In this document: in pieces, positions 10,584-13,074 of the stretch
How positions within the stretch are numbered: the first letter of the stretch is position 1
Layout: every line of letters starts with the position of its first letter
DNA from: Desulfovibrio sp.
Lineage (GTDB): Bacteria; Desulfobacterota; Desulfovibrionia; Desulfovibrionales; Desulfovibrionaceae
Reading direction: 5' to 3'
Length of the DNA: 64,000 nucleotides
Assembly: GCA_031271265.1 (NCBI GenBank)
Contig: JAISWB010000112.1
Location: 1-64,000 of the forward strand
Made by a program: the position numbers and the translations under genes
The notes under the pieces: generated by a model
Database searches by the model: none
Seen by the model: only the letters and a program-made list of their open reading frames with translations
Told to the model about the DNA's origin: nothing

Positions 10584-11066
10584 ATGAAAATCAGCAATGA
10601 ACAACAGCAGGCCGTTCAGGAAATCCGGACGCAGCGTCCGGCGGAGCAGCATGCGGACGCGGGATTCGACCGTATCCTGACCCGCGAGTTGGGCAACGGT
10701 CCAGCGCAGGGGACGGAAGCCTCCGGGCGGGCCGATTTGCATATCCCTCCGCGGATTTTGCCGGGGCTCGAAGCAGGCAGGGTTGACGGCACAGGCGCGG
10801 CGCTTCCGGCGTTCTCGGAAGAAGCGGCGGACATGGTTGAAGACGTGTTGACCAAACTTGAGGGCTATGCCGCGCAACTCGGCCGCGCCGAAGCCGCCGA
10901 CTTGCGCACGGCCTTTGCCTCTCTTCGGAACGTGCAGGAGGGGATAAGCGGGTTCAGGGAACGCTTTCCCGGAGAGTCAGCAGGGACGGCCGGGGAACTG
11001 ATCGACGAACTGGACGTTCTGGCCGTGACCGAAACATTCAAGTTCAACCGCGGGGACTATCTGTAG
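10584..11066 (+). CDS. Conserved-looking hypothetical cytoplasmic protein
   Basis: A 160-residue protein with AAAGGAA before the ATG. It is hydrophilic, with no signal peptide or membrane helix. The N-terminal half is rich in Q, A and E with a FDRILTRELG segment. The C-terminal half (~78-150) looks like two or three amphipathic helices: AADMVEDVLTKLEGYAAQL, AADLRTAFASLRNVQ and ELIDELDVLAVTETFKFNRGDYL. I recognise this style from small Desulfovibrio proteins of unknown role but cannot name a domain. It stands alone between two minus-strand genes, so it is probably its own transcription unit. Confidence 0.65.
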   Translation: MKISNEQQQAVQEIRTQRPAEQHADAGFDRILTRELGNGPAQGTEASGRADLHIPPRILPGLEAGRVDGTGAALPAFSEEAADMVEDVLTKLEGYAAQLGRAEAADLRTAFASLRNVQEGISGFRERFPGESAGTAGELIDELDVLAVTETFKFNRGDYL

Positions 11067-11123: not shown

Positions 11124-11663
11124 TTATCCTTCGCGGTGACTATGGGCCAGAGCAGTTTCCACAGCTTCCAGCCCTGCCAACGCGGCGGCAAGACGGACTT
11201 CGTCCCTGTAACCTGAGAAGGTCCGGCAAAACGAAGTGATTGCCGGGCCCTGGGGATGGTCCGCAAGGTTGCGCGAGGGGTAGACCGCCGTTGCGAACCA
11301 GACGGTGCCCACGGGTTTTTCCGCGCTCCCGCCTCCGGGGCCGGCTATGCCGGTGACGGCCAGAGCCGATGCCGCTCCCGTCGCCGCCAACGCGCCGAGA
11401 GCCATGGCCTCGGCCACAGGCCCGCTGACCGCGCCGTGCGCCGTGAGCAGTACTTTGCTTACGCCCAGCAACCGCGTCTTGACGCTGTCGGCATAGGCCA
11501 CAATGCTTCCGCAAAACCAGCGCGAACTGCCGGGAACGCCTGTACACAACGCGGCGGCAAGACCGCCTGTACAGGATTCCGCCGTACACATCGTCATGTT
11601 CCTGGCCAAAAGTTTCCGGCTCACCCGGCCGATAAGCCATAGACCTTCTTCTGGAATTTCCAT
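11124..11663 (-). CDS. pncC: CinA C-terminal-type nicotinamide-nucleotide amidohydrolase
   Basis: A 179-residue protein from the ATG at 11663. It has the family core [25 protein letters not shown], then [52 protein letters not shown]. The AESCTGG serine/threonine pocket and GIAGPGGG loop are those of PncC, which hydrolyses NMN to nicotinate mononucleotide in NAD recycling. The CinA N-terminal domain is absent, as in E. coli PncC. A longer upstream frame exists but adds only Arg-rich sequence. Its 5' end is divergent to the binding-protein gene at 11740. Confidence 0.88.
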
Positions 11664-11739
11664 ACGGTATGCCTTGTGTCGAGCGTCATTTCCGGAAACG
11701 CACCGGGGTGGCCGCGCCGACCGCGCGGAGGGAAAACAG

Positions 11740-13074
11740 ATGCCGAACACCATGTTCAATGTAGCGTACGGGCGCGGACTTAGGCAAGCACTCTTTGCAC
11801 GCCCGGCATTGACGCGTGAATCAGTGCAAAACCATGCCGGCGCCTGCAGACTCCGGCACAGGCTTTTTGCCTGCTCGGCACTGGCCCTGCTTCCTGCCGC
11901 TGGCCTGCGGAGCGTTGCAGCCCTTGTCTTCCTTGCCGTTCTCGCATTGGGGACCGGAACCGTCCCCGCTGGAGCGGAACCGGTACGCGTGGTTTACGGG
12001 TTCGACCGCGAATTCGCGCCCTTCACCTATGAGGAAGATGGCGGCAAACCAGCCGGGTTCGAGATAGAACTGGTGGACGCCGTGTTCCGCGGCACCAAGG
12101 CCGAGGTGTTCCATCGGCCCATGCCGTGGTCGCGCATCGGCCTGGAACTGGGCAACGGCGGCATCAACCTGACCACCGGCATGGTGCGCACGGAACAGCG
12201 TGCCAAGTTGTATCTTTTTTCGGAGCAAGAACTTTTCCGCTTGCAAATCCGCCTGTTTACCAAGTTATACAACCGCCGCCCGTCCATCGACCAGTTGCGC
12301 GGGCAGGCGGTTGCCGTGGAGCAGGGCAGCTATCCGGACACCCTGCTGGAGCAGTACGGCGGATTCAACATCAAGAAATTCAAAAGCCGGGCCGAAGCCG
12401 TGCGCGCCCTGCACAACGATGAAGTGCAGGCATATTGCGGTCCGGTGCAGAATACCTATTTCCTCATCAACAAGCAACGCTACGGGGCCATAACCACCAT
12501 CGGCACGCCGCTGGGTATCACGGAAATGCGGGCGGCCTTCAACCGGAGCAGGGGGGATATTCGCAGCCTGTTCGACGAAGGACTGCGGCAAGTTGTCGCT
12601 TCGGGAGAATATGACCGCCTGTACCGAAAATGGTTCGTGCGCGAACTGAACGACCGGGAAAAGGACCTGATGCTGCGCGCCGCGACCGCGGCCGCCGTGC
12701 CGGCGTACGCCCCTTACGGCCGTAAGGGTTCCGGCGCGGCCGTACTCACGGCTTCGGGCAAGGTCTACGCGGCCTGCAATGTGGAAAACGCAGACCCGCT
12801 CCTGAACCTTTCCGCCTTGCGCGGCGCCGTTGCCAAGGCCGTGTCCGACGGAGAATTTGAACTGCGCGCCGCGCTGCTCACGGATCCTTCCGGCGCGCCG
12901 CTTAAATTTTCTCCGGAAGATCTGCAGGTGCTCAGCGAATTCGGCCGGGGCGTGCTGATCCTCACGGGAAAAGCCAAAGGCGGCTTTGAAAGCGTCATGC
13001 TCTCCCGCTTGCTGCCGAATCCCGTGCGTCGTGACGTGGAAGGCACGCGGTCCGGCGCTGCGGAAACACACTGA
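11740..13074 (+). CDS. Periplasmic amino-acid-type binding protein fused to a degenerate cytidine deaminase domain
   Basis: From the ATG at 11740 (GGAGG eight bases upstream) the protein has 444 residues. After a hydrophobic export region (~45-78) comes a family 3 solute-binding domain at ~81-303: [45 protein letters not shown] and [13 protein letters not shown]. Residues ~305-428 match cytidine deaminase: [32 protein letters not shown] and a final LLPNP. The metal site has gone: where deaminases have TxCAE the sequence reads NLSALRGA, and the PCGxCRQ loop reads FSPEDLQV. All zinc ligands and the catalytic glutamate are missing, so the domain can at most bind a ligand. No transport permease is adjacent; a thioredoxin-like gene follows. 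Confidence 0.85.

Follow-up and report, generated by a model that had tools for sequence, protein, structure and literature searches.

The described proteins closest to the one analysed here are the homotetrameric cytidine deaminases (CDAs; Cdd of TIGR01354/NF004064, such as B. subtilis 1JTK and mouse 1ZAB) and the family 3 amino-acid solute-binding proteins (SBPs) of the GlnH, ArtJ and HisJ type (PF00497). Zinc-less proteins of the deaminase superfamily, such as TM1506/DUF1893, have a deaminase-like fold without a zinc site; to our knowledge, proteins of this type are neither secreted nor fused to an SBP. No Pfam match to DUF1893 was found in the window protein or the other fused members. A comparable layout is seen in the lytic transglycosylase MltF (NF008112), which places an SBP-like N-terminal domain ahead of a C-terminal enzyme fold in the periplasm and in which muropeptides trigger an allosteric switch formed by the N-terminal domain (PMC10746161). 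However, the enzyme fold of MltF is a different one and is active, whereas the CDA fold described below appears inactive. For tetrameric CDAs, previous work has proposed that regions I (VGA) and II (NxEN) support the tetramer, while regions III (CAE) and IV (PCxxC) serve zinc binding and catalysis; substrate is contacted by position 24, N42, E44, A46, Y48 and the C-terminal Phe, and A54 also contacts the nucleoside (PMC9897663).

The window, the whole 64,000-nucleotide stretch of DNA that was analysed, carries on its plus strand a frame of 444 aa plus stop (11740..13074), which joins an exported SBP_bac_3 domain to a zinc-less CDA domain and recurs as the same frame in relatives. A GGAGG sequence resembling a ribosome-binding site lies a few bases 5' of the ATG at 11740. 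The first segment, an N-terminal extension with a signal-peptide-like stretch (11740..11976, plus strand), was assigned heuristically and contains a hydrophobic core and a candidate signal peptidase I site between AGA and EP; 43 of 45 members likewise start with a signal-peptide-like stretch by a simple heuristic. In the window and its close relatives about 55 residues precede the hydrophobic core (11740-11900 in the window), and this extension is much shorter in other genera. The long version found in the window's genus would be an extended signal peptide or else reflect a wrongly placed start. At another locus (L053:4970-7397, minus strand) the frame holding the fusion member is 809 codons long, and its upstream portion may be an open frame in GC-rich DNA.

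The family 3 solute-binding domain follows at 11977..12639 (plus strand, from Pfam and alignment). PF00497 matches residues 85-299 of the window protein (E 7.4e-21; 74.7 bits against a gathering score of 26.4) as well as all 45 members, and comparison of the structure model identified this part as a two-lobe binding protein like GlnBP or ArtJ. The C-terminal domain (12640..13032, plus strand), defined by profile, model and alignment, has a CDA fold of the tetramer type (PF08211) without zinc ligands or catalytic Glu. PF08211 (dCMP_cyt_deam_2) matches residues 306-372 above its gathering score (E 1.7e-7). In phmmer searches the C-terminal 154 residues matched solved cytidine deaminases over ~117 aligned residues (E 1.2e-13), and a family profile of this part, run against solved structures, matched only cytidine and blasticidin-S deaminases (E 9e-28). 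The NCBIfam scores of the fused domain fall under the equivalog cut-offs, at 56 versus 74 for NF004064 and 46 versus 114 for TIGR01354.

Structure prediction agreed with these assignments. AlphaFold2, run on single chains only and with 45 family members in the input, gave a mean pLDDT of 92.7 and a pTM of 0.89 for the mature protein, and a pLDDT of 91.6 and a pTM of 0.84 for the CDA domain alone. The best 50 Foldseek matches of the domain model were all CDA or blasticidin-S deaminase, with TM-scores to target of 0.80-0.92; mouse CDA was the best PDB match, and mycobacterial and Bacillus cytidine deaminases were also matched. The likeness to Cdd covers the whole C-terminal domain (TM to target 0.83-0.86 and ~30% identity versus 1JTK and 1ZAB) and extends to the YAPY, GAA, xxEN and LLP motifs. 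The earlier note, which was made from the sequence alone and had read the frame as an exported family 3 SBP joined to a CDA fold, was thus borne out by the Pfam matches, the AlphaFold2 and Foldseek results and the signal-like N-termini. Its impression that no described system has this pairing also held for the open-access literature that we searched, where no description of the combination was found; an earlier mention elsewhere is possible. Both domain families are known, and what appears to be new is their combination, with a second domain that is by its sequence a pseudoenzyme.

Unlike Cdd, the fused domain is exported, stands behind an SBP and has lost its metal site and catalytic residue, as the earlier note had claimed. 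Using the numbering of B. subtilis Cdd and an alignment of 46 fused sequences, including the divergent member G362 described below, we found the changes C53 to S, E55 to L, C86 to S and C89 to D in the window. Motif III reads S-A-L-R in place of C-A-E-R (12811..12822, plus strand), and motif IV reads S-P-E-D-L-Q in place of C-G-A-C-R-Q (12910..12927, plus strand). Cys and His are absent from all three zinc positions (53, 86 and 89) in the 46 members, and position 55 is L, I, V, M, T, P or F throughout, never E, Q or D. Deaminase activity of the fused domain is expected to be absent.

The replacements follow a pattern. Position 53 is S, T, G or Q (S/T in 41/46), position 86 is S, T, A, G, D, E or N, and position 89 is D in 32 members, E in 12 and V in 2, so that an acid stands there in 44/46; S/T86 is combined with D/E89 in 29 members. 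In the domain model the former zinc-Cys helices span 59-69 and 92-99. Ser58 (Cys53) and Ser91 (Cys86) lie one residue before them, directly preceding the modelled helices at N-cap positions, and Asp94 (Cys89) lies three residues past Ser91, at N3. S/T-x-x-D/E ahead of a helix is the classical N-capping box, and the S-x-x-D of motif IV fits this helix-capping pattern. The model suggests that the zinc site did not simply erode but was rebuilt, with helix-capping residues as a structural replacement for the metal: Ser or Thr and Asp or Glu at the N-ends of the two former zinc helices would stabilise a metal-free fold. Metal-free capping of both helices would also suit export to the periplasm. A substitute metal site formed by S/T53, S/T86 and D/E89 was considered as well, and N-capping is the simpler account of these residues.

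The domain order proved to be strongly conserved in other Desulfovibrionaceae. The fusion is present in 47 of 288 genomes of this family, in 16 genera; contig ends interrupt the members in G122 and G175, and the other 45 were aligned. It was found in 13 of the 15 searched genomes of the window's genus and in 10/10 listed genomes of genus g23; the window genome has relatives among Desulfovibrio sp. metagenome-assembled genomes (88% protein identity). Order and class searches, covering the same 348 genomes, gave no further genome with the full fusion, and no plasmid copies were found. A sample of 395 genomes from across the phylum yielded one further full-length member, in G362, which belongs to a different class; the other 62 genomes of that class gave no fusion. 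The G362 gene (L109 5985-7227, minus strand) adjoins genes resembling dnaA and dnaN.

In the phylogeny, the fused CDA domains formed one clade versus standalone Cdds (support 100/97), and G362 branched outside the 45 other fused members (support 93/78). Standalone Cdd is encoded in 39 of the 288 family genomes and in none of the 47 with the fusion. By genus, 16 of 44 have the fusion and 6 have Cdd, with no overlap (chance probability ~0.05 by our own arithmetic); this is only borderline, and we do not claim a meaningful exclusion. All 17 standalone Cdds from sister genomes keep CAE, and 13 of them also keep PCGxC in the aligned part; for the other 4 the aligned part ends short, and the full frame of one of these (G001) has PCGACRQ. 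A recent duplication of a resident Cdd is unsupported, since carriers of the fusion have no standalone Cdd and the fused domains are a single clade. Furthermore, because no fusion carrier in the sampled family has a standalone Cdd, a PF08211 match in such a genome should not be read as cytidine salvage.

For pairs where it could be computed, dN/dS was 0.01-0.35 in the CDA part versus 0.03-0.14 in the SBP part. With all 46 members lacking the zinc ligands and the catalytic acid, and with purifying selection on the domain, the CDA domain would be in use, but not as a deaminase. Being inactive, ancient and under purifying selection, it qualifies as a working pseudoenzyme. We conclude that what was once an enzyme has long served as a non-catalytic portion of a secreted protein.

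The solute-binding domain has in turn diverged from the amino-acid SBPs that it resembles in its two-lobe fold, export signal and aligned Arg. The carboxylate-binding Arg of these proteins aligns with Arg77 (mature numbering), present in 44/45 members; Trp53 is found in 45/45, Asp12 in 44/45, and Pro17 is invariant. In contrast, the position of the alpha-amino-binding Asp is never Asp and is mostly P (31 of 45), A (8) or L (3), with D or E one residue past it in 24/45. We presume from SBPs of the GlnBP type that the Arg grips the carboxylate and the Asp the alpha-amino group, a residue pair specific for amino acids that is incomplete in the fused family. Since the Arg is kept and the alpha-amino Asp is lost, the ligand is probably not a canonical alpha-amino acid. 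Also unlike amino-acid SBPs, the protein carries an extra C-terminal domain and has no identified permease next to it. The absence of an adjacent ABC permease, already remarked on in the earlier note, extends beyond the window, as no ABC permease or ATPase was seen there, nor among identified neighbours elsewhere. Such absence is common among orphan SBPs and so does not disqualify the protein from family 3.

Taking these observations together, we tentatively favour, at somewhat less than an even chance, an orphan periplasmic binding protein in which the pseudo-deaminase at the C-terminus serves for assembly or docking. A single ancient fusion added a tetramer-type CDA domain to the C-terminal side of a secreted SBP, and this domain has since been retained under purifying selection without zinc ligands or catalytic Glu. 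The SBP cleft would bind an acidic ligand that is probably no canonical alpha-amino acid, and the CDA fold would act as a non-catalytic module, either self-associating through the CDA tetramer or dimer faces or docking to a partner. The whole protein would be a multivalent periplasmic binding or sensing protein rather than an enzyme. Self-association is predicted here from motifs, the models being of single chains.

The residues retained in the CDA domain fit this assembly reading in part. Region I survives (G27 in 43/46, A28 in 45/46 and A29 in 44/46), and region II survives partly (E44 in 44/46, N45 in 35/46 and N42 in 28/46). The GAA and NVEN motifs to which the earlier note had drawn attention are thus indeed kept; its label of base-pocket signatures fits them poorly, and they are better described as tetramer-supporting and ribose-contacting, the window having K at the position of F24. 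The retention of GAA and xxEN, the disappearance of the zinc regions and the loss of F24, Y48 and F125 outside G362 all favour an assembly role, as do the SBP's lost alpha-amino Asp with its kept Arg and the absence of an identified permease alongside. Against it, two ligand contacts of CDAs, E44 and A54, rank with the best conserved positions, and G362 keeps the full examined nucleoside-contact set, which a pure scaffold would not need.

These last residues are the basis for an alternative that we regard as possible but on the unlikely side, namely that the protein is a receptor with two heads, in which the pseudo-deaminase keeps a nucleoside- or ribose-like pocket and senses or scavenges in the periplasm alongside the SBP ligand. 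E44, the ribose 3'-OH contact in CDAs, and A54 are each present in 44 of 46 members, position 42 is N, T or S in 42, and G362, outside the other 45, has F24, N42, E44, A46, Y48 and the C-terminal Phe with no zinc ligand. However, the known nucleoside pocket is not kept in Desulfovibrionaceae, including the window: F24 is replaced by K, V, S, Q and others, Y48 by P, L or S or deleted, and F125 by V, I, Y and others. Moreover, E44 belongs to NxEN, a motif for which tetramer support has also been proposed (PMC9897663), and no nucleoside transporter was identified in the conserved neighbourhoods. The nucleoside- or pyrimidine-like ligand sensor suggested in the earlier note, which this alternative takes up, finds no support as worded, given the loss of F24, Y48 and F125 in this family, even with E44, A54 and, in 28/46, N42 kept.

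The residues of G362 point to a possible nucleoside-binding ancestor, and this suggests an order of events in which zinc was lost first and the nucleoside pocket later. In an unlikely variant, a deaminase was captured by secretion and stripped of its zinc in one step, becoming a periplasmic receptor domain for nucleosides or ribose in a two-headed binding protein, with the G362 type, which has the nucleoside pocket but no zinc site, as a living intermediate.

We consider it rather improbable that the protein is a sensory accessory, in which the loaded SBP docks to a membrane receptor (a chemoreceptor or sensor kinase) and the CDA fold serves as the docking or dimer interface. Family 3 SBP domains do act as sensor domains as well, and the SBP profile also matched the histidine kinase sensor domain 3h7m and BvgS 4q0c. 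In addition, the next gene on the same strand encodes a chemoreceptor (PF00015) in g23, a histidine kinase in L070 and a PilZ protein in several others. These downstream genes, which also include one for an HD-domain protein, vary by genus, however; they hint weakly at signalling and give no clear ligand. The neighbours that recur across genera, a divergent cinA and a co-directional glucokinase, are cytoplasmic enzymes. In ~38 contexts, cinA was divergent and upstream in most, and glucokinase lay directly downstream on the same strand in 11. In the window, the CinA C-terminal-type gene (PF02464) is at 11124..11666 on the minus strand, and its conservation in most relatives does not imply a functional link; the other neighbours encode a thioredoxin-like protein, a GNAT acetyltransferase, a phosphoribosyltransferase, a zinc-ribbon/DUF3426 protein and a RadA-like ATPase. 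We considered and dropped a ligand deduced from cinA (NMN amidase family) and glucokinase, since both products are cytoplasmic and one gene is divergent. CMP kinase, 3-5 genes away in 12 contexts, was judged to reflect synteny.

It is very unlikely that the CDA tail is merely left over from a fused enzyme and of no use, decaying slowly and tolerated since it folds. The CDA part is generally somewhat faster than the SBP part (dN/dS 0.13-0.35 versus 0.06-0.14 in several pairs), but these values are well under 1, none of the 46 members is truncated other than by the end of a contig, and across the 16 genera there is almost no variation at E44, A54, A58, G35 or the acidic position 89. A frameshift or an assembly error joining two genes, for which nothing was found in favour, was excluded as having a negligible probability, since the same continuous frame and domain order occur in dozens of other genomes.

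The fusion is thus a widely conserved secreted pseudoenzyme in Desulfovibrionaceae, built of two textbook domains, that automatic annotation can mistake for a cytidine deaminase or for a subunit of an amino-acid transporter. It would offer a compact test case of an enzyme that loses its metal and is reused, with Cys giving way to helix-capping residues; sister genera have an active standalone counterpart, and an intermediate may survive outside the class.

Several conserved genes accompany the fusion. The loci with glucokinase downstream (L048-L050, L052-L054 and L064-L068) fall in two separate parts of the tree, and the arrangement suggests an old gene pair. A small conserved protein of ~160 aa with a C-terminal VTExFKFNRGDYL and no Pfam match is encoded at 10584-11066 in the window, with relatives in 20 contexts; in many genera its gene is the second one upstream of the fusion. 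At L073:7846-8638 and at 8 further loci, in genus g23 and some other genera, the gene immediately upstream of the fusion and on its strand encodes another conserved protein, of ~264 aa and also with no Pfam match.
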